Assembly: GCA_002780065.1 (NCBI GenBank) | Contig: PEWQ01000161.1 | Span: 1 to 26,438 of the forward strand | DNA from: Candidatus Hydrogenedentes bacterium CG07_land_8_20_14_0_80_42_17 | GTDB taxonomy: Bacteria > UBA8481 | Direction: 5' to 3' | Length of the DNA stretch: 26,438 nt | Shown here: positions 3,856 through 26,438 of the stretch, piece by piece | Layout: every line of letters begins with the position of its first letter | Numbering within the stretch: the stretch's first letter is position 1 | Translations under genes and position numbers: made by a program | Notes under the pieces: model-generated | What the model was told of the DNA's origin: nothing | The model's database searches: none | Seen by the model: only the letters and a program-made list of their open reading frames with translations

Positions 3856-4953
3856 ATGAAGAAGGCGTTTAAATTTTTATTTAGTTTTTTATTCGGCATT
3901 CTGCTATTGGAAATATTACTTCGTTTCTTCTGGCTATTGCCGGTAACGGCAAAAGGCGCATATTTGTGCCGAGACGATGTCGCAGATCATTCTCATTACA
4001 AATATGGAATCGGCCGCATGAGGTCGAAGGAATTCAATGTTGTTTTGCGAATGAACAACATCGGTATGCGCGATGATGATGTGTCTCTAAGGAAAAAAGA
4101 CGGAGTGAAAAGAATTTTGATGCTCGGAGATTCCTTTATGGAGGGCTGGGGCTGTGAGCGCGGAGAGATATTTACGGACAGGCTGGAAACGGAACTCAAT
4201 AGCGCGGGAATAAATGCGGAGGTCGTTTCTGCCGGAGTCGCTTCATGGTCGCCTTTGACGGAACTAGCATGGCTTCGAAAAAACGGTTTGCCTTTAGAAC
4301 CGGACATGGTTGTGCTGGCGCTCGATGCGACTGATCCTTCCGGAGATTCGTTTTATGCGCATCGGCTCGAACGAGATTCAAACGGCAGACCTCTTTACAT
4401 TCGAAGTGGAAAAAGATATTTGGATATTCCGAAACCTGTTCACGACTTTTTGTCGGAGCGCTCTTTTATTTACAGGTATCTGGATAGATGGCTTACGAAA
4501 AAATTTCCTCTAACCGAATGGGATTACGGATTCTGGTCGGACAGCGACGACGTTTGGGCTCCGCTTCGCTCTGAAACAGAAATACCTCAACCTCTTTATG
4601 AATCCTACTGGAAGTATACGGAGGAGGCTCTGCGGACAATGCGTGACATTTTGAATGAGAAGAAGATTCCGTTTTTAGTTATTATGTATCCTGCCGGAGT
4701 AGAGGTTGACAGCTCATGCTGGATGCCTGGAAGACATACCGCAAAATTCAAAGATGGATTAATTTTTCCAAGAAGATTTGATTACATGAATAATATGGCT
4801 GAGCGCGACTCGATACCATATTTTAGTTTACTGGAGACATTCAAATCGGATTCGGAACCGGTTCGACTTTTCTATCCGTATGACGGCCACTGGACAAAAT
4901 ACGGACATGAGCTTGCGGCAAAAGCTGTTGCTGAAAGAATTGTGAATCACTAA
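3856..4953 (+). CDS. membrane-anchored SGNH/GDSL hydrolase-like protein
   Basis: A 365-residue protein with an N-terminal hydrophobic helix (about residues 5-28, in FKFLFSFLFGILLLEILLRF), then a periplasmic domain. MLGDSFMEGWG near residue 93 supplies the block I GDS nucleophile. SAGVASWSPLTE resembles the block II glycine region, and YDGHWTKYGHELAA near the C-terminus gives the catalytic Asp-x-x-His-like pair. This layout is shared with O-acetyl-esterases and AlgX/AlgJ-like acetyl-transfer proteins of exopolysaccharide pathways. It is transcribed away from the carbamoyltransferase operon, and GGAG lies 7 bases before the ATG. The likely role is modification or trimming of acyl groups on a surface glycan, inferred from fold and neighbours; the substrate is unknown. 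Confidence 0.75.
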   Translation: MKKAFKFLFSFLFGILLLEILLRFFWLLPVTAKGAYLCRDDVADHSHYKYGIGRMRSKEFNVVLRMNNIGMRDDDVSLRKKDGVKRILMLGDSFMEGWGCERGEIFTDRLETELNSAGINAEVVSAGVASWSPLTELAWLRKNGLPLEPDMVVLALDATDPSGDSFYAHRLERDSNGRPLYIRSGKRYLDIPKPVHDFLSERSFIYRYLDRWLTKKFPLTEWDYGFWSDSDDVWAPLRSETEIPQPLYESYWKYTEEALRTMRDILNEKKIPFLVIMYPAGVEVDSSCWMPGRHTAKFKDGLIFPRRFDYMNNMAERDSIPYFSLLETFKSDSEPVRLFYPYDGHWTKYGHELAAKAVAERIVNH

Positions 4954-18006: not shown

Positions 18007-20231
18007 GCTATGAGATGTCGCTCCAGGATTACCTCCGCGTAATATTTAAACGGAAATGGATTATTCTAGTATCAACTTTTACAATTTTCGTAACCTCTCT
18101 AGTTTATACAAGTAAGTTAATTCCGAGATATGTTGCTTCCGGCAGAGTGGAACTCAACTATCAGTCGACGCTTGCAACTTTGTTGTCAGATGCGCTTTTA
18201 TACAAAGGCAACGAGCTTGCGACTGCGATAAATTTTGCTACTTCGATGCCGGTTATGGAGAACGCAGTCAGGAGATTGGGGCTAGTCGGGCCTGATGCAA
18301 CAAAGGCTGACGTATTAGTCGAAGCTTCGAAATTGCAAGCGGGAGCTTCAGCAATTGGCGACGGTCAGACGAATTTCATTACGATTTCGTTTACGCATTG
18401 GGATCCGAAATTTTGCGCCGAAGCAGTGGATGCAATAGCTGAAGGATTCAGTGAAGAGTATCGATCGAGAAACACCAAAGATGCAGATCAAATAAAATTG
18501 TTTTTAGAGGAACAGGCTCGAATGGCAGAACAGCAGTTACTTGAGTCTGAAAATGAGCTTGCTTTTTTGAAACAGCAGAAAAATTATGTCGAACTCGATC
18601 AAGGAGTTCGGATTAACATAGAACAAGCGGCTACTATCGAGGCTGATTACACGAAGATAAAGATGGAGCGACAGCAGATAGAGCGTGAACTTCTTGAAAT
18701 GAAAACGGAGCTTAAGAATGAGGAACCAAGCGTAAGAACTCAGGAATTAATTCAGAACGATCCTCGATTGAGAGAAAACCGCAAACAGCTTATAGATGCG
18801 GAGATGGAACTTGCTACAAAACTTAAGACATTAACTCCGCTACATCCTGAAGTTAAGAGAGTCGAAGACAATTTGAGACGATTACGCACTCAGATGGAAA
18901 TAATTATCGGAGAGATTACAAAGGACCGACGAGCCGAATTGGAAACCAAATTCGGAATTTTGAAGGAGAAAGAAGCAGCCATTCAGCACGCTATTCCTCG
19001 TTTGAAGTTCTTAACTGAAGACATTCCGCGGCAACAGATGGAACAGGCGCGCATACAAAGACAGATATCTATGCAGGAAAAATTATTTTCTTTCTTCAGA
19101 GATAAGCTGGAAGAGAAGAAATACGATGAGCTTGTAAGCAGGGACAATGCGATATCAGTCATAGAGCATGCGGCTATTCCGCTAACACCTAATTATCCGA
19201 ATAAAAAAACAAATGCAATGGTTGGAATGGCAATCGGATTAATTTTAGGATTTGCTTTAGCGTTTGTGGTTGAAGCGATGGATACTTCTATTGGAACGAT
19301 AGAAGATGTAGAAAGAACTACTGGGCTCCAGGTTTTGGGAGTTATTCCATCAATAGCTGTAGATGAAGATGAACAGGCTTTAGCGACTCAGTCGATTGTG
19401 ACTTTCGATCCGGATCATGTGAGAACTCGAGATATTAAAGAGCGACTGCTGGAACTTGACACTTCTGTTCGGCAAAGTCAAAACGGGACAGGAGTCTTCA
19501 AACCACAATTGATAACATATCATGATCCGAAATCTCCGATTTCAGAAGCATATAGGACATTGCGAACGAACGTGCAATTTAAGGGAGCCATTGGCGATAT
19601 GAAGACGTTGACTGTTACCTCGTCAGGGCCTCAGGAAGGCAAGACTACGACACTTTGCAATCTTGCTGTTGCGATGGCGCAATCAGGATTGAAGGTGCTG
19701 GCAATGGGTTGCAACTTGAGAAGACCGGCATTGCATAAACTTCTAGGAATAAACAAAAAACCCGGCGTAACAGATATTTTGATTGGAGCTCGAAAATGGG
19801 AAGAGGTTGTTCAGAAAACAGGAATTGAAAATCTGCATGCGTTTTGTTCAGGACCTATTCCTCCGAATCCAAGCGAACTTTTGGCATCCGACGAGATGAC
19901 TGAACTGATAAGGCAGGTCAGAGAAGCTTATGACATCGTGATATTTGATTGCCCGCCCATTTTACCGGTTACAGATGCGGCAGTTTTGTCGGCAAAATGT
20001 GATTCCGTGCTTTTGGTTTATTATGTCGGCAAAGCCGCCAGAGAAGCATTGGTCAGAGCAAAGGTTCAGTTAGAGAATGTAGGCGCAAAAATATTAGGAG
20101 TTGTTTTGAATCACATACCCGCCGAAGGTAGATTAGGATATTCATACTATTATTATCACTATCATTATTACGGCGAGTCATCTAAAGAAGACGGTCTACC
20201 AACCAGGATATTGAAGAAGAGAAAAACCTGA
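17997..20231 (+). CDS. Wzc-like polysaccharide co-polymerase with degenerate BY-kinase domain (copy 2)
   Basis: A 744-residue paralogue of the preceding protein with the same plan: transmembrane helices at about 22-44 and 405-427, a periplasmic Wzz/GNVR coiled coil, then a CpsD-like ATPase domain. Walker A is GPQEGKTTT (about 544-552) and Walker B IVIFDCPPI (about 647-655). Walker A' reads LAMGCNLRRP (about 568-577), again GxN instead of DxD, the same substitution pattern as copy 1. The tail holds an unusually dense tyrosine/histidine cluster, SYYYYHYHYYGES (about 715-727), followed by a basic end. The GTG start has a strong AAGGAGG upstream. Its stop overlaps the next start as TGATG. Two full-length Wzc-type proteins in one operon suggest a hetero-oligomer or two export systems. 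Confidence 0.9.
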   Translation: MAVGYEMSLQDYLRVIFKRKWIILVSTFTIFVTSLVYTSKLIPRYVASGRVELNYQSTLATLLSDALLYKGNELATAINFATSMPVMENAVRRLGLVGPDATKADVLVEASKLQAGASAIGDGQTNFITISFTHWDPKFCAEAVDAIAEGFSEEYRSRNTKDADQIKLFLEEQARMAEQQLLESENELAFLKQQKNYVELDQGVRINIEQAATIEADYTKIKMERQQIERELLEMKTELKNEEPSVRTQELIQNDPRLRENRKQLIDAEMELATKLKTLTPLHPEVKRVEDNLRRLRTQMEIIIGEITKDRRAELETKFGILKEKEAAIQHAIPRLKFLTEDIPRQQMEQARIQRQISMQEKLFSFFRDKLEEKKYDELVSRDNAISVIEHAAIPLTPNYPNKKTNAMVGMAIGLILGFALAFVVEAMDTSIGTIEDVERTTGLQVLGVIPSIAVDEDEQALATQSIVTFDPDHVRTRDIKERLLELDTSVRQSQNGTGVFKPQLITYHDPKSPISEAYRTLRTNVQFKGAIGDMKTLTVTSSGPQEGKTTTLCNLAVAMAQSGLKVLAMGCNLRRPALHKLLGINKKPGVTDILIGARKWEEVVQKTGIENLHAFCSGPIPPNPSELLASDEMTELIRQVREAYDIVIFDCPPILPVTDAAVLSAKCDSVLLVYYVGKAAREALVRAKVQLENVGAKILGVVLNHIPAEGRLGYSYYYYHYHYYGESSKEDGLPTRILKKRKT

Positions 20232-21664
20232 TGTCTGAAGTTGGAACTTCTGCCGGCACTTTATCTCCTTACCGAATAGAATCACCATCTCAGACCAAAC
20301 CTATGGCCGGAGCCATGGGTTTGGTATTTATTTCGCTGGGATTTGTAATGTATCTTGCAATGCAGGCAGATGCTGCGGGTTCTTCATATCTTGCAATAGG
20401 CATCGTTTCATTGATAGTTATTCTTTTTACATTAATCGATGTAGAATTTGGTATTTATTGCTTAATCGGAGGAATGCTTCTTTCGCCTGAAATTCCTATT
20501 CCTTTCATTCATCTTCCCGGTAGACAGGTTATCGTACGAATAGATGATATGATGATTTTAATGGTTGGAGCGGCATGGTTTGCTCAAACTGCAGTTAGAG
20601 GAAAACTCGACCATCTTGTTTCTACTCCATTAAATAAACCTATTTTGTTATTTCTATTCATCACTATTATTTCTACAGCAAGAGGCTCTTTCATGGGCTC
20701 AGTCGGCAGTCCGCTGACAGCATTCTTTTTTGTTCTGAAATTCATAGAATTTTTTCTTTTATATTTTTTGGTAGTGAATACTATTTCATCTGAAGCTCAG
20801 ATACGGCGAATAATGATATCGTATTTTATTACGCTATTAGTTGTAGTAATTTATGCAACATGGATGTCAGTAGTAACTCGACAGATTGGGCGAGCAACTA
20901 CTCCGTTTGAGTCTGCTGAAGAGCCAGGAACGCTTGGCGGATATCTGCTTTTTTCTTTTGCTCTTGCATTTGGACTTTTAAATTACATATCAAATCCGAT
21001 CTCTAAATTATTTTATTTTGCCGTGATGTGCGCCATTATTCCGCCTTTTCTTTACACGCTTTCAAGAGGTTCATATATGGCCTTTTTTCCAATGTTCATT
21101 GGCGTTTTGTATTTGAGCAAGCGAAAACTGATTCCGTTTGCGTTGTTGGTTGTGTTAGCTTTGGCAATGCCTTATCTCCCTTCCACCACGAAGGAACGCG
21201 TCGAATATACATTTCAGAATAGGATTGAAAATATTTTCAATCCTGAAGAAGAGGTTGTATTGGATCCTTCGTCAACCGCCAGACTTGAACGATATAATGG
21301 GGTTATTCTTCAGTGGCAGTATAAACCTCTATTGGGGCAAGGAATGACCGGTGTTGGATTCGTGGACAGCCAAATAGTTCGTGTCTTGGGAGAACTGGGC
21401 ATTCTAGGGCTATTGACATTGTCGTGGATATTCAAAAATCTTTTTCAATCGGCATTAACGCTCTATCGATTTCTTCCGAATGGCTACATGAAAGGATTGG
21501 TGCTTGGAATGATTGCAGGTACTATCGGACTGATATTTCACGGAGCTACTGCGAACACATTTACTGTAGTGCGTATTGCAGGACCATTTTGGGTTATGGC
21601 AGGGATTACTTTTGTGATATATCGCTTACATGAGAAGGAATTAAAGGCAAGCCATGCGTCTTGA
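20231..21664 (+). CDS. O-antigen polymerase/ligase-like membrane protein
   Basis: A 477-residue protein with about ten to twelve hydrophobic helices. Near the C-terminus YKPLLGQGMTGVGFVDSQIV and VLGELGILGLLTLSWIF form the loop-plus-helix typical of the Wzy_C superfamily. ATTPFESAEEPGTLGGYLLF earlier resembles the first periplasmic loop region. It would polymerise or attach lipid-linked glycan units on the periplasmic face, working with the Wzc-like and Wza-like proteins encoded upstream. It starts within the TGATG overlap with the second wzc-like gene and overlaps the next small gene by 11 bases. It is clearly different from the 378-residue protein at 2641-3777, so the locus has two members of the superfamily. 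Polymerase is favoured over ligase because of the export genes beside it. Confidence 0.85.
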   Translation: MSEVGTSAGTLSPYRIESPSQTKPMAGAMGLVFISLGFVMYLAMQADAAGSSYLAIGIVSLIVILFTLIDVEFGIYCLIGGMLLSPEIPIPFIHLPGRQVIVRIDDMMILMVGAAWFAQTAVRGKLDHLVSTPLNKPILLFLFITIISTARGSFMGSVGSPLTAFFFVLKFIEFFLLYFLVVNTISSEAQIRRIMISYFITLLVVVIYATWMSVVTRQIGRATTPFESAEEPGTLGGYLLFSFALAFGLLNYISNPISKLFYFAVMCAIIPPFLYTLSRGSYMAFFPMFIGVLYLSKRKLIPFALLVVLALAMPYLPSTTKERVEYTFQNRIENIFNPEEEVVLDPSSTARLERYNGVILQWQYKPLLGQGMTGVGFVDSQIVRVLGELGILGLLTLSWIFKNLFQSALTLYRFLPNGYMKGLVLGMIAGTIGLIFHGATANTFTVVRIAGPFWVMAGITFVIYRLHEKELKASHAS

Positions 21665-21866
21665 AGAAACTGGATTTTTATTATTTTTATTAGCCGCAAT
21701 CGTTCTGATCTCAGGATTTTACATTTCAGAGCAGTGGACTAATCTTGTGAAACCATTTTTTGAATTATTTGGCGCGATAATTATTTATTTTCGTTATCCG
21801 GCAATTGCAATTGCATTGCTAATTGGTATTGTAATCTTCATGAAGAAAATCAGCAGAGCCAGATGA
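21654..21866 (+). CDS. small two-helix membrane protein, unknown function
   Basis: A 70-residue protein I cannot assign to a family. Two hydrophobic helices (about residues 7-24 and 44-63) are joined by a polar stretch with SEQWTNLVKPFFELFG, and the tail is basic (KKISRAR), so both termini probably lie in the cytoplasm. Its ATG overlaps the end of the polymerase-like gene by 11 bases and its stop overlaps the proC start as ATGA. This tight packing on both sides is good evidence that it is translated. It may be an accessory subunit of the polymerase or of YggT-type membrane proteins downstream; nothing in the sequence decides this. Confidence 0.75.
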   Translation: MRLEETGFLLFLLAAIVLISGFYISEQWTNLVKPFFELFGAIIIYFRYPAIAIALLIGIVIFMKKISRAR

Positions 21867-22660
21867 AGATAAGATTTGTCGGCGGCGGCCGAATGGCTAC
21901 TGCAATTCTTTCAGGCTTAATTGCAAAGGAATATTCGAGCGGAGAACTTTTTGTATCCGATCCCCAACTTCAAGCTAGAGAAAAATTAAAAACAATTTTA
22001 CCTGAAGAAAATATTTTTTCTGATACGTCGAAGATGCTTTTGACAACTGATGGAGTAATTGTCATTGCAGTTAAGCCGCAAGAGATTAATAACGTATTTC
22101 CATTATTCAAAGAGATAGAAAAGAGTTTGGTAATTTCTATTGTTGCCGGAATAACTTGCGCAAAGATTGAATCTCATCTTTCTGAAGGCGTTCCGGTAGT
22201 TAGAGCAATGCCGAATACGCCTGCGCTAATTGGACAGGGAATTACCGCTATTGCCTCGGGTAAGTGGGCTGGAGATGCAGAGATGAAGACTGCAGAAAGC
22301 ATTCTTTCGACAGTAGGCAAAGTAGTTTTACTTAATGAAGAATCAATAGACGCAGTGACGGCAATTTCAGGTTCCGGCCCAGCGTATTTTTTTCTCTTCA
22401 TGAAAGCGCTTTATCGAAGCGGAATAAAACTCGGTCTGAATGAAGATACGGCTCTAGAGTTAGTGCTATCTACTGCTAGAGGAGCCGTCATGCTTGCTGA
22501 AAATTCGAAAACACCGCTTCAAGATTTAATCTCTGCTGTTGCATCGAAAGGCGGAACAACGGAGCAAGCGCTGAAAGTTTTTGCGGAACGAGGCTTAGAA
22601 GAGATCGTTTTTTCTGCGGCTCTAGCGGCGAAGAATCGTTCAGAGGAACTTTCTCGTTGA
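21863..22660 (+). CDS. proC: pyrroline-5-carboxylate reductase
   Basis: A 265-residue cytoplasmic enzyme, normal length, that makes L-proline from pyrroline-5-carboxylate using NAD(P)H. The Rossmann start IRFVGGGRMATAILSGL is intact, followed by IAVKPQEI and SIVAGITCAKIE. VRAMPNTPALIGQG and the ProC signature AVTAISGSGPAYFFLF are present, as is the conserved GAVMLAENS and SKGGTTEQALKVF in the dimerisation domain. It begins in an ATGA overlap with the small membrane protein gene and ends in a TTGA overlap with yggT. proC next to yggT is a widely conserved pairing; their attachment to a polysaccharide operon is less usual. Confidence 0.96.
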   Translation: MKIRFVGGGRMATAILSGLIAKEYSSGELFVSDPQLQAREKLKTILPEENIFSDTSKMLLTTDGVIVIAVKPQEINNVFPLFKEIEKSLVISIVAGITCAKIESHLSEGVPVVRAMPNTPALIGQGITAIASGKWAGDAEMKTAESILSTVGKVVLLNEESIDAVTAISGSGPAYFFLFMKALYRSGIKLGLNEDTALELVLSTARGAVMLAENSKTPLQDLISAVASKGGTTEQALKVFAERGLEEIVFSAALAAKNRSEELSR

Positions 22661-22971
22661 TAGTTTTTTCGAATTTATTGAAAGCCACGGCACTAATTAT
22701 AGATTTGCTGTTGCAGGCATATTTGTGGATAGTTATTGCATCGGCAGTCATTACGTGGGTGAACGCTGATCCGTGGAACCCGATTGTTAAATTTCTTAGA
22801 AAATCCACATCTCCAGTCTTTATTCGATTACGAACTTGGTTTCCTTTTTTCTCTCTAGGCGCAATCGACTTCACGCCGATGGCAGTGATTGCAGTCATAA
22901 TGTTTCTTAGATATTTTGTTGTTGGAACTATGATTGACTACTCAATTTTATTAAGGATGCGCGCTCTGTAG
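22657..22971 (+). CDS. yggT: YggT family membrane protein
   Basis: A 104-residue integral membrane protein of the YggT family, linked in other bacteria to cell division, thylakoid organisation or osmotic stress, with no settled biochemical role. Two hydrophobic helices (about 10-30 and 68-90) flank the family signature SAVITWVNADPWNPIVKFLR and the later GAIDFTPMAVIAVIMFLR. This copy has one YggT unit, where many proteins carry two. Translation starts at TTG 22657, overlapping the proC stop by 4 bases. Its last codons (LLRMRAL, stop) lie inside a 35-bp sequence that recurs about 600 bases downstream, on the far side of an inserted DUF4160-DUF2442 module. Confidence 0.92.
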   Translation: MIVFSNLLKATALIIDLLLQAYLWIVIASAVITWVNADPWNPIVKFLRKSTSPVFIRLRTWFPFFSLGAIDFTPMAVIAVIMFLRYFVVGTMIDYSILLRMRAL

Positions 22972-22976
22972 AAGCG
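22942..22976 (+). repeat. 35-bp direct repeat, copy 1 (3' end of yggT)
   Basis: TCAATTTTATTAAGG (22942-22956), then AT, then GCGCGCTCTGTAGAAGCG (22959-22976) matches copy 2 at 33 of 35 positions once the insertion splitting copy 2 is removed. It includes the final codons and stop of yggT plus five bases beyond. Flanking sequence outside the 35 bases does not match. Confidence 0.85.
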
Positions 22977-22983
22977 GAATAAC

Positions 22984-23289
22984 TTAGATATGGCTGTAAG
23001 CGAATGACCTAGCTATTTTGTTAGATTTATTATGTTTGTATTTAAGAGGGTATTTTTCAGGATGCTCCAAATTATCTATTTCTAAATCTATATCTAAGTC
23101 TGGCCAATATAGATGAAAACCATGAAGTAATTTTACATTTTGAATTGATTTAATGCTTTCGTCTTTAAAATATGGATAATTTTCAAAAGATAAAAAATAT
23201 TCTTTTCCTTTTACAAACAACCATATTCCAAAAGAAGAAATATTTTCAATTGATACTGAAATATTTTTTCCATTCTTTAATGATTTCAT
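22984..23289 (-). CDS. DUF2442 domain protein
   Basis: A 101-residue protein of the DUF2442 family. ENYPYFKDESIKSIQNVKLL, HGFHLYWPDLDIDLEIDNLE and the ending HPEKYPL are the family's typical core, and the C-terminal KHNKSNKIARSFAYSHI is extra. I chose ATG 23289 because AAGGAG lies 7 bases upstream and residues match the family from there; an in-frame ATG at 23322 would add 11 residues out of family. DUF2442 genes commonly sit directly after a DUF4160 gene, as here, with the two overlapping. The pair is often treated as toxin-antitoxin-like, but which partner does what is not established. It converges on yggT with only 12 bases between stops. Confidence 0.85.
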   Translation of the reverse strand: MKSLKNGKNISVSIENISSFGIWLFVKGKEYFLSFENYPYFKDESIKSIQNVKLLHGFHLYWPDLDIDLEIDNLEHPEKYPLKYKHNKSNKIARSFAYSHI

Positions 23290-23487
23290 TTTTATGCTCC
23301 TTGACAAGTTTCTGTATTTCATTTAATTTTTTGCATTAAGTTTATGGTATGTTGCCATTGAAACTATAGGTTCTAACCAAAATTTTGCTTCACCATCTGC
23401 ACAAATAATATGAACATGCATTCTATTTTCTTCATTTGAAAGAAAATAGAATCGATAACCTTTAATTCGAAATAAAGTAGGACTCAT
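23246..23487 (-). pseudogene. DUF4160 domain gene interrupted by a -1 frameshift (broken or programmed)
   Basis: From ATG 23487 the frame encodes 54 residues starting MSPTLFRIKGYRFYFLSNEE and containing GEAKFWLEPIVSM, a clear DUF4160 N-terminus, then stops at 23323. The remaining family sequence, LNEIQKLVKEHKNEIIKEWK and on to a TGA at 23246, continues in the -1 frame. The junction reads GCA AAA AAT TAA: a slippery A AAA AAT heptamer (23332-23326) directly before the stop. A -1 slip there gives an 80-residue product of normal family length. A single lost A in this A6 run (by mutation or sequencing) explains it equally well. The intact frame on both sides favours either recent damage or real recoding. 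The end overlaps the DUF2442 start by 44 bases. Confidence 0.8.
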
Positions 23488-23498
23488 AATTTATTGCC

Positions 23499-23510
23499 TA
23501 ATAATTATTA
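23499..23510. promoter_or_regulatory. 12-bp perfect palindrome upstream of the DUF4160 gene
   Basis: TAATAATTATTA is its own reverse complement. It lies between the -10 box and the ATG of the minus-strand DUF4160 gene, over the predicted transcription start. That is where autorepressing toxin-antitoxin-type proteins often bind. Its low complexity makes chance possible. Confidence 0.4.
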
Positions 23511-23513
23511 ATT

Positions 23514-23542
23514 AGAATAAAACCGTTAAATGGTATTGTCAA
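23514..23542 (-). promoter_or_regulatory. near-consensus promoter of the DUF4160-DUF2442 pair
   Basis: On the minus strand a perfect TTGACA (23542-23537), a 17-base spacer and TATTCT (23519-23514) form one of the strongest promoters in the window. The -35 box straddles the edge of direct-repeat copy 2: its first four bases come from the repeated sequence and the last two from the module. Confidence 0.65.
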
Positions 23543-23632
23543 TTTTATTAACCGGAGTCCTGTCCGTGGTAAAGATTATTTTCGACGACTTGCAGGAGTC
23601 CGGTTATTAAGGCCGCGCGCTCTGTAGAAGCG
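23539..23632 (+). repeat. 35-bp direct repeat, copy 2, split by a palindromic insertion
   Basis: TCAATTTTATTAA (23539-23551) matches the start of copy 1 and GGCCGCGCGCTCTGTAGAAG onward (23611-23632) matches the rest with two changes. The parts are separated by 59 bases: a 52-bp palindrome-ended unit plus a second TTATTAA. Read in the yggT frame, the right part would encode RPRAL and a stop, nearly the real yggT end (RMRAL), so it is a relic of the same gene terminus. Confidence 0.8.
23552..23603. repeat. 52-bp palindrome-ended insertion with 7-bp flanking duplication
   Basis: CCGGAGTCCTG (23552-23562) and CAGGAGTCCGG (23593-23603) are inverted repeats with one mismatch. TTATTAA stands immediately on both sides (23545-23551 and 23604-23610), as expected for a target-site duplication. 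Comparison with the unbroken copy 1 shows exactly what was inserted. The unit is non-coding and resembles a very short MITE-like element. It can also fold into a stable hairpin in RNA. Confidence 0.65.
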
Positions 23633-23663
23633 AAAATTCTTTCGAAATTATCTCTTCGATTGC

Positions 23664-23691
23664 TTGACTATTTCGGTTAGACTTATAAATA
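23664..23691 (+). promoter_or_regulatory. candidate mtnP promoter
   Basis: TTGACT (23664-23669) and TAAATA (23686-23691) are 16 bases apart. An overlapping alternative is TTGCTT with TATAAA (23684-23689) at 18 bases. Either would start transcription shortly before the GGAGG that precedes the mtnP ATG. This promoter lies just outside the duplicated yggT end. Confidence 0.4.
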
Positions 23692-23715
23692 TCCATAAAA
23701 GATGGAGGAGAATAG

Positions 23716-24570
23716 ATGCGGGGACTGATAGGAATAATTGGCGGAAGTGGAATTTATGAAATGGATGGATTACAAAATATAGAAGAGATTGATATTGATA
23801 CACCTTTTGGTAAACCTTCGGACTCTATAGTTCTCGGGACTTTATCAGGGAGGCGGCTTGCGTTTTTACCTCGACACGGCCGCGGACATAGAATTATGCC
23901 GGGGGAACTGAATTTCAGAGCAAACATCTGGGCAATGAAGAAACTTGGTGTGGAGTGGCTTTTGTCTTTTTCGGCGGTAGGCTCATTGAAAGAAGAGATA
24001 AAGCCTCGTGATGTTGTCATTCCTGACCAAATATTCGATCGGACTTTGCAGAGACCGAGGACTTTTTTTGGAAACGGTATTGTTGCTCATATATCATTTG
24101 CTTCGCCGTTCTGCCCGGTGCTAAGAAAACTTCTTATGGAATCTTCAAGGAAACTTGGATTGGCAGTTCATGATGGAGGAACTTATGTTTGCATTGAAGG
24201 ACCGGCGTTTTCTACAAAGGCAGAGTCAGCGGTTAATCGAATGCTCGGTTTTTCGATTGTTGGAATGACAGCGGTGCCGGAAGCCAGACTAGCTAGAGAA
24301 GCCGAGATTGCTTATGCAACTGTTGCGCTCTCTACAGATTATGACGTATGGCATGACTCCGGTGAGGTTTCAGTAGAGATGGTTATGGAAAATTTGAGGA
24401 CGAACACAGAAAATGTCAAACGGATAATCAAAGAAATTGTTCCTCAAATTCCAACTGACCTTTCCAGTCCGTCACATGATGCTTTGAAAGGAGCAATTAT
24501 GACCGATAGATCTATTTGGCCTGATGAAACAGTAAAGCGTTTAGGCGTTATTATCGAGCGATATTTGTAA
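23716..24570 (+). CDS. mtnP: S-methyl-5'-thioadenosine phosphorylase
   Basis: A 284-residue purine nucleoside phosphorylase-fold enzyme that splits methylthioadenosine with phosphate into adenine and methylthioribose-1-phosphate, the first step of methionine salvage. IGIIGGSGIYEMDGL holds the phosphate-binding start, and LPRHGRGHRIMPGELNFRAN is the MTAP-type signature. YVCIEGPAFSTKAE and MTAVPEARLAREAEI follow. STDYDVWHDSG carries the aspartate pair that selects adenine over hypoxanthine, arguing for MTAP over PNP. Length is typical. The ATG has GGAGG 7 bases upstream, and the PilB-like gene follows after 16 bases, so the two are probably cotranscribed. No other salvage genes (mtnA, mtnB and so on) are in the window. 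Confidence 0.93.
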   Translation: MRGLIGIIGGSGIYEMDGLQNIEEIDIDTPFGKPSDSIVLGTLSGRRLAFLPRHGRGHRIMPGELNFRANIWAMKKLGVEWLLSFSAVGSLKEEIKPRDVVIPDQIFDRTLQRPRTFFGNGIVAHISFASPFCPVLRKLLMESSRKLGLAVHDGGTYVCIEGPAFSTKAESAVNRMLGFSIVGMTAVPEARLAREAEIAYATVALSTDYDVWHDSGEVSVEMVMENLRTNTENVKRIIKEIVPQIPTDLSSPSHDALKGAIMTDRSIWPDETVKRLGVIIERYL

Positions 24571-24586
24571 AAGCTTTGGAGGAATT

Positions 24587-26266
24587 ATGTACACAAAAGA
24601 AAATTTAGGGTCGTTACTTTTAAGAGCCGGCGCAATAACAGAAGAACAGTTGAATGAATCTCTTAGAATTGCCGAAGCGGAATCGAAGCGATTAGGAGAA
24701 GTGCTTGTTCAGAACGGCTATGTCACTGAAGAGAGAATACACCAATTTTTGGGAATTCAGCTCGGCTATCCGTCAATAGTATTGGAGCGGACATATTTAG
24801 ATTCTGCAATTGCGAAAAAAATTCCGGAAAAATTTGCAAGGCGGTATGGAGTTATCCCTCTATACCGTACTGAAACTGCTCAGGGGCCGGTAGTAGTTGT
24901 TGCGATGGCGGATCCGACTAATATTAAAGTTAAAGATGAGATTCAACATGCTCTCGAAGAAAATATTTTTGTTGCGATTGCCAGTCCGAAAGATATTGAT
25001 CAAACACTCGATTCGATTTGGAATCCTGATTACAGTTCTGCAACAACTGAGTCGGAACAGAGAAATTTGCTTCCGGTAACTGAGGAGGAGACTAAGCCGG
25101 CAATTGCAAAGATATTAGAAAACATATTCAAGAGAGCTCTGGAACTGCGCGCAAATGCTATTCACATAGAGCCTAAAAATAAATATGCCGGAGTCAGATT
25201 TAAAATTGACGGCAGTTATCATTCGATTACTTCATTCCCGTTGGATACATATCAGGCGGTGTTGGCGAGAATCAAGATATTATCCAAGATTCGGGTTGGT
25301 GAGTCGGTAATTTCTGTTGAAGAAGGAAGATTTCATATTCGAGAAGATCTCGCAAAACCTGTCATCGATGTCCGAGTGACTATTGTTCCTGAAGTATTCG
25401 GCGCAAAGACGATTTTGAGACTTACTCGCAGAGAAGAAATAATAAGGCCAATAGAGCAAATAGGTTTTGAACCTGAACAGTTGGGAATTTTACAAACTAT
25501 TTTGTCTAATAAGTCAGGACTTATTTTAATTTCAGGACGATACGATTCAGGCAAGACTACTTTAGCATATTCTCTGCTTTCAGCGGTCAGTTCTAAATCG
25601 AATATGATCGTTACGGTAGAAGACCCTACCGCATATCCGATTTCAAGTTTCAATCAAATTAAAAAATTAATAAACTCGCCTGACAGCGGAAATGTTTGGG
25701 AACAGACCTTGAGGATTGTAGAAAGTCAGGACCCGAACATTGTATATATGTCCAATGTAGATACTAAAGGGGAAACTGCGATGATGCTGAGATTTGCATC
25801 AACCGGCCGCAGAGTTATTGCAACTTTGTATGCTGAAGATGCGCCTTCGACTCACTGGGTTCCATTTCGACTCGGAGCAGATTCGTATTCTCTTGCGTGG
25901 TCATATTCGGGAGTGATATCGACAAGGCTGATAAGGAGGCTTTGCGATTCATGCAAAGAGGAGACAGTAATTAACGAGGAAGTTCTTGCTAAATTAGGTT
26001 CGAATAAAAAGATGATTGCCGGGAAAAAGATTTATTCTGCGACAGGTTGTGAAGTTTGTAATGGTACTGGATACAGGGGACGAATTGGAGTTCATGAAGT
26101 AATGCCAATCTACGACCACACAAAGGAATTAATAGAATCAAAGGCCGATTCGGATAGGATTCGCGAATCCGCAAAGGAATCGGGGATGATGTCGTTTAAA
26201 GAAGCGGCTATTTGCAAAGTTATTCAAGGATTGACAAGCCTTGACGAAATTGAACAATTTATGTAA
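24587..26266 (+). CDS. PilB/GspE family ATPase with degenerate catalytic motifs
   Basis: A 559-residue homologue of the motor ATPases of type IV pili and type II secretion. An MshEN/GspE N-domain (about 6-57) has a tandem motif, LGSLLLRAGAITEEQL then RLGEVLVQNGYVTEERIHQF, of the c-di-GMP-binding kind. Walker A survives as GRYDSGKT (317-324) and the Asp box as VEDPTAY. Walker B, normally GEIRD, reads SNVDT (389-393), so the catalytic glutamate is gone. The His box, normally TLHTNDA, reads TLYAEDA (413-419). The zinc motif is kept: CDSC (453-456) and CEVC (488-491). It probably binds ATP but hydrolyses it poorly, perhaps as a regulatory partner of an active PilB. GGAGG precedes the ATG. No pilin, pilC or pilT gene is nearby. 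Confidence 0.85.
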   Translation: MYTKENLGSLLLRAGAITEEQLNESLRIAEAESKRLGEVLVQNGYVTEERIHQFLGIQLGYPSIVLERTYLDSAIAKKIPEKFARRYGVIPLYRTETAQGPVVVVAMADPTNIKVKDEIQHALEENIFVAIASPKDIDQTLDSIWNPDYSSATTESEQRNLLPVTEEETKPAIAKILENIFKRALELRANAIHIEPKNKYAGVRFKIDGSYHSITSFPLDTYQAVLARIKILSKIRVGESVISVEEGRFHIREDLAKPVIDVRVTIVPEVFGAKTILRLTRREEIIRPIEQIGFEPEQLGILQTILSNKSGLILISGRYDSGKTTLAYSLLSAVSSKSNMIVTVEDPTAYPISSFNQIKKLINSPDSGNVWEQTLRIVESQDPNIVYMSNVDTKGETAMMLRFASTGRRVIATLYAEDAPSTHWVPFRLGADSYSLAWSYSGVISTRLIRRLCDSCKEETVINEEVLAKLGSNKKMIAGKKIYSATGCEVCNGTGYRGRIGVHEVMPIYDHTKELIESKADSDRIRESAKESGMMSFKEAAICKVIQGLTSLDEIEQFM

Positions 26267-26299
26267 TCACCGAAGTCATGCAAGTCGATATGGAATGCA

Positions 26300-26371: not shown

Positions 26372-26438
26372 ATATTTGAAATTGCAAATTGGAAAGTGCA
26401 AATTGAAAATTTTATTTTTCCAATTTTCATTTTTCAAT
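26372..26438. repeat. 67-bp repeat, right copy (identical to left end)
   Basis: Identical over all 67 bases to positions 1-67, same orientation, and it ends exactly at the window edge. It directly follows the CACAGAG-type hairpin, so at least two families of intergenic repeat cluster here. Confidence 0.85.

Follow-up and report, generated by a model that had tools for sequence, protein, structure and literature searches.

DhiT-DhiA is composed of a DUF4160 toxin followed by a DUF2442 antitoxin and was shown in E. coli and Dickeya dadantii to act as a type II system (PMC8198452). For the DUF4160-DUF2442 persistence module of Thermus plasmids, a plasmid without the second ORF yielded zero transformants in T. 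thermophilus (PMC12724237). No target duplication is described for DhiTA or the Thermus module in the available sections of PMC8198452 and PMC12724237. For restriction-modification systems, long and variable target duplications in the order of 100 bp are described in PMC3874152 and PMC3031569. Furthermore, toxin-antitoxin cassettes are well known in superintegrons (PMC2654758).

We compared these systems with a locus in the window, as we call the whole stretch of 26,438 bp that was analyzed. Between the host genes yggT and mtnP the window carries a DUF4160-DUF2442 module, which is flanked by two copies of the yggT end. The features are as follows:

22657-22971, plus strand: yggT, intact host gene with its last 30 bp in repeat copy 1 (Pfam YGGT, E 6e-14)
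22942-22976, plus strand: repeat copy 1, consisting of the yggT 3' end, the stop codon and 5 bp past the stop
22977-23538, no strand assigned: inserted block of 562 bp with 25.6% GC (window 41.5%)
22984-23322, minus strand: DUF2442 ORF, antitoxin-like, for which an ATG inside the ORF, near 23289, is the likely start; as in homologues, the gene overlaps the toxin gene end
23246-23487, minus strand: DUF4160 gene, toxin-like, in the frames 23487-23323 and then about 23332-23246
23514-23542, minus strand: candidate module promoter, a 10/12 sigma-70 match that is not above chance for the region
23539-23632, plus strand: repeat copy 2, a remnant of the yggT end broken by the nested insert
23550-23607, no strand assigned: nested palindromic insert of about 59 nt, a short form of a dispersed repeat with TTATTAA at either side
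23716-24570, plus strand: mtnP-like phosphorylase, host gene downstream of the module

Both domains of the module were recognized by Pfam, DUF2442 with 50.8 bits (E 2e-13, cut-off 23.9) and DUF4160 with 36.1 bits (E 8e-9, cut-off 23). The toxin gene comes first and the antitoxin gene overlaps it on the same strand. DhiTA and the Thermus plasmid module have the same domain pair, the same toxin-first order and overlapping or nearly overlapping genes. The window differs from DhiTA in that its toxin frame is broken. The break lies at an A-run near 23329-23336 and leaves the profile positions 1-44 and 44-65 in separate frames, while the closest homologue has its DUF4160 in a single frame. We favour decay as the cause of the split frame over a sequence error or a -1 slip on the run, which reads A AAA AAT. 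The DhiT model NF048015 (cut-off 100) did not match the window ORF and gave 27.5 bits with the intact homologue, which suggests that this branch is a distant relative of DhiT.

Proteins with 82% and 73% identity to the DUF2442 protein occur in genomes related only at the domain level, whereas mtnP is 68% identical within the order, which argues for a foreign origin of the pair. Judged from these sequence comparisons, the module is predicted to be a DhiTA-like toxin-antitoxin pair that was gained horizontally. The original prediction of a minimal, toxin-antitoxin-like DUF4160-DUF2442 module at the yggT 3' end, with a duplicated gene end and without an internal recombinase, is supported, and the A+T-richer 562-bp segment on the opposite strand between the repeat copies was confirmed as well (25.6% versus 41.5% GC). 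The promoter of its own that had also been claimed for the module stands as one 10/12 sigma-70 match at 23542-23514, with a -35 hexamer straddling the edge of repeat copy 2; the number of matches in the region was no higher than in shuffled sequences (5 versus 4.4).

The inserted block contains no recombinase according to its ORFs and Pfam, and none was recognized by eye among the ORFs of the window, with Pfam run on the ORFs of 20231-26266. DUF2442 gave no matches in viral contigs and phages, and no relatives were found among solved structures or in PADLOC. DNA similarity to the homologue in genome G171 amounts to 83% but spans 23018-23488 only, ending at the toxin start codon; of five further homologues, four show its onset at nearly the same point. 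Because relatives become similar only from the toxin start codon onwards, the module has no conserved ends that a recombinase could recognize. Inverted repeats, as they would be found in an insertion sequence or MITE, were absent from the block edges. Furthermore, the window differs from these elements by a 35-bp duplication instead of a short fixed one and by homologues that lack conserved ends. As a separate observation, GTCTAACAA...GTTAGGC with a long inner palindrome, perhaps attC-like, is located near 4700-4800 of locus L182, 3' of the G171 DUF2442.

Re-alignment of the two repeat copies confirmed the predicted repeat of the yggT end around a nested insertion: 33 of 35 positions are identical once the 59-nt insert is removed, and the sole difference is AT versus CC. 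The copies share no exact match longer than 18 bp. The ungapped core (22948-22979 and 23604-23635) scored 45.5 bits, compared with a maximum of 27.4 bits among 200 dinucleotide shuffles of both flanks. Besides the identical contig ends, this is the sole direct repeat of such kind in the window. No third copy of the 35-mer was found in the own genome (87% complete, 207 contigs). The possibility of a generic multicopy repeat, which had been named as a point against the prediction, did not apply, and a dispersed nature of the 35-mer was ruled out, since the genome has just two copies.

The nested insert has inverted ends (AACCGGAGTCCTG and CAGGAGTCCGGTT). With up to 3 mismatches, the right end is shared by a dispersed element present at 28 sites of the genome, compared with 0 sites for a reversed control pattern. 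Many copies of this element finish with ...GTGGTTGCATTCCATATCGACTTGCATGACTCCGGTTA. As copy 1 is without the insert, it most simply would have entered copy 2 after the duplication. Apart from this, the dispersed element was seen to end in CGACTTGCATGACTCCGGTTA; many of the 28 sites are near contig ends and several are located just 3' of genes. A short two-ended form is present in the window's own genome at G000:C166:9374-9457.

The yggT gene of the window is open through copy 1 and encodes 104 aa with the C-terminus SILLRMRAL; copy 2 minus the insert would read SILLRPRAL-stop. In the order-level relative, which is without the module, yggT also encodes 104 aa and has the C-terminus SLLKGRVF. Because of this same length and similar ending, copy 1 looks like the proper yggT end. 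The relative carries proC-yggT without the module, but its downstream synteny differs from that of the window, and it gave no DUF2442 match. No yggT-mtnP junction without the module was found when mtnP was sought in 60 relatives as well as throughout the order, which was represented by one other, non-syntenic genome; a scan of GTDB contigs for mtnP gave matches from other phyla only. Likewise, no relative carrying the module with diverged flanks was found within the order, represented by this one other genome.

Homologous loci were scanned for direct repeats straddling the module. In the single-contig genome G261 an 83-bp repeat with 98.8% identity covers the 5' end of hsdM, and a third, weaker copy lies 2.3 kb off. 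Genome G044 carries a 94-bp repeat (94.7%) over the 3' end of nrdB, the ribonucleotide reductase small-chain gene, where the module opposes the gene direction as in the window. The same genome carries a 56-bp repeat from the 3' end of a prepilin peptidase gene and a 234-bp repeat from the 5' end of a gene which we take to be uvrA, with a 120-aa fragment without Pfam match. In G017, a 37-bp repeat derives from the 3' end of an acyl-CoA dehydrogenase gene. At the described gene-end loci the module separates an intact gene from its truncated copy. Across the homologous modules the repeats range from 34 to 234 bp, and both 5' and 3' gene ends were targeted. The copies at the other loci differ by 1-12%, which argues that not all duplications are recent, and events after the insertion may have contributed. 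An empty site in a close relative was found neither at yggT nor at any other locus examined, and for the G347 locus no orthologue was present in the genus.

With L186, L241 and L197, genome G044 holds three separate DUF4160 insertions (nrdB, prepilin peptidase and uvrA), perhaps reflecting a burst or a host factor. At the hicAB loci L341, L308, L321, L342 and L319, the duplicated ends belong to hypD, pckA, nuoG, a 5S rRNA gene and a tRNA gene, the last three being assigned by eye; the tRNA and 5S rRNA ends would also fit integrases. Plasmid and E. coli copies were of no use as sources of empty sites: the copies examined in E. coli, Citrobacter and Pantoea have a fixed position in an ICE-like region, and flanking duplications were absent from nearly all plasmid-borne copies tested. 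As a side observation, among 5426 E. coli genomes 5 carry the DUF4160-DUF2442 pair or, in one case, DUF2442 alone. The copies in the three chromosomes examined (L389-L391) belong to an ICE, where they lie between the STY4534/ssb region and pilL.

More than a hundred DUF4160 loci were obtained from 385 genomes with Pfam, and straddling repeats were enriched in them over the background. In a loose test they were found at 34 of 134 DUF4160 loci, compared with 13 of 300 and 8 of 151 control positions. When at most two copies per locus and closeness were required, the numbers were 14 of 126 for DUF4160, 9 of 66 for hicA and 1 of 400 for random positions. The strictest test gave 13 of 128 DUF4160 loci, the window being counted among them, versus 0 of 151 small ORFs (p 3e-5) and 2 of 210 intergenic points (p 1e-4); the hicA figure of 9/66 and this 13/128 come from slightly different tests. 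By inspection, the flanking repeats of L188, L237, L298 and L263 are palindromic or multicopy, and 13/128 is therefore a ceiling for genuine target duplications. The gene end is clearly involved in about six DUF4160 cases, three of which share the genome G044. A feature specific to DUF4160 was ruled out by the similar hicA rate.

Based on our analysis, it is probable that a DhiTA-like module was inserted after the yggT stop with a 35-bp target duplication, as one case of a wider pattern of toxin-antitoxin insertion. The DUF4160-DUF2442 module would have arrived by horizontal transfer and inserted directly 3' of the yggT stop codon. The insertion itself presumably doubled 35 bp of the target, keeping yggT intact and leaving a remnant of the gene end beyond the module. 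It would have proceeded without a dedicated recombinase, most likely by capture of a fragment or circle at a staggered break, the overhangs of which were filled in. Addiction may then have selected for the retained insertion. Insertions elsewhere would break genes and be lost, which we propose as the reason for finding the survivors at gene ends. Later, the dispersed repeat would have entered copy 2 and the toxin frame would have decayed.

The locus belongs to a wider pattern, in which DUF4160-DUF2442 and HicAB modules at least are found with long, variable target duplications at many unrelated gene ends. By analogy, the gene-end duplication in this form resembles, and may be a variant of, the pattern already described for restriction-modification systems. 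Insertion of these systems with long target duplication was reportedly described by Nobusato et al. 2000 and Furuta et al. 2010, as cited in PMC3874152 and PMC3031569. According to the available parts of the published accounts, an addiction module, flanking target repeats of tens to hundreds of bp and the lack of a mobility gene are shared features. The cargo is different, since the window carries a toxin-antitoxin pair of about 500 bp. Additionally, the restriction-modification cases rest, as far as these accounts go, on comparison with empty genomes, whereas the duplication in the window is known from the occupied site.

A different origin would be a site-specific cassette, either the module itself or the remnant of a larger element, which was integrated by a recombinase acting in trans and brought along a yggT end of its own as the attachment site. 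Gene 3' ends are usual targets of integrases, the copies differ at 2/35 positions, and the duplicated end would restore yggT, in the same way as elements integrated at the 3' end of a gene or tRNA keep their target gene whole. However, unlike these elements the modules show no integrase, no common attachment site and no common ends, the ORFs of the window include no recombinase recognized by eye or, for those of 20231-26266, by Pfam, and both gene ends are targeted, so that we regard this origin as unlikely. A single attachment site does not account for the pattern, because the targets differ, both gene ends are used, the repeats range over 34-234 bp and common ends are lacking. The view of the yggT terminus as attachment site is not supported for the window either: the 35-mer is not reused in the genome, homologues are inserted at unrelated targets and no ends are shared. 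Mobilization in trans had moreover been put forward as a new arrangement, but long target duplications without a recombinase are already described for restriction-modification systems in PMC3874152. Quite improbable is the history of an integron gene cassette inserted outside an integron, with the repeat being incidental or a later duplication. The motif ATCTAAC after the window DUF2442 and GTCTAACAA at the same place in the closest homologue do resemble the first attC box, and a longer attC-like stretch was seen by eye 3' of DUF2442 in L165. However, a strict RYYYAAC/GTTRRRY search found no complete attC pair in the repeat-bearing loci tested, and the insertion of cassettes does not duplicate 35-234 bp of target. 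Small toxin-antitoxin cargo without a recombinase of its own is common to the window, integron cassettes and pdif modules, but neither of these two systems duplicates the ends of target genes. The window differs from both in its duplicated gene end, with no attC pair in the strict search and no dif-like site recognized by eye.

Programmed frameshifting, by which -1 slippage on A AAA AAT would give a functional toxin and a live module, is hardly to be expected. The run looks like a -1 slippery site, and the family profile carries on in the downstream frame, but the closest homologue and nearly all others encode the toxin in one frame; in any case, frameshifting bears on the state of the toxin and not on the entry of the module. 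That the repeat or the join was created by the assembler may come to mind for a fragmented genome with 207 contigs and 87% completeness. This is extremely improbable, since the longest exact match of 18 bp is below the usual assembly word sizes, the flanking genes are read through normally and the single-contig genome G261 shows the same architecture. Target duplication during insertion of the module is the reading we prefer.

Up to one in ten DUF4160 relatives and one in seven hicA modules are flanked by duplications, and entry without transposon or integrase may therefore be frequent. It is conceivable, though rather doubtful, that small toxin-antitoxin modules as a class spread free of recombinases and leave long target duplications, for which toxin-provoked breaks or the death of losers would perhaps be responsible. 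If so, long target duplication would be a general scar of addiction-module entry, beyond restriction-modification systems. The route by which toxin-antitoxin genes reach chromosomes in the absence of plasmids, phages or transposons is still debated. If scars were present on a good part of the modules, the duplicated end of a neighbour gene would allow entry points and age to be mapped in any genome, and what has been proposed for restriction-modification systems would become testable on smaller and far more numerous modules. No report of a long target duplication for DhiTA or HicAB was found in the literature searched, which covered few subscription papers.

Three further features were noted within the window. 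The sequence 22406-22427 inside proC resembles the yggT end (19/22 match with 22961-22982), probably by chance. The two ends of the window, 1-67 and 26372-26438, share 67 identical bp. Since the dispersed repeat is also present at 26267-26287, this more likely reflects a repeat located at either contig end than a circular molecule. Finally, a perfect 24-bp palindrome (AGGATTGAAAATATTTTCAATCCT) is located at 21221-21244 within an O-antigen ligase-like ORF.
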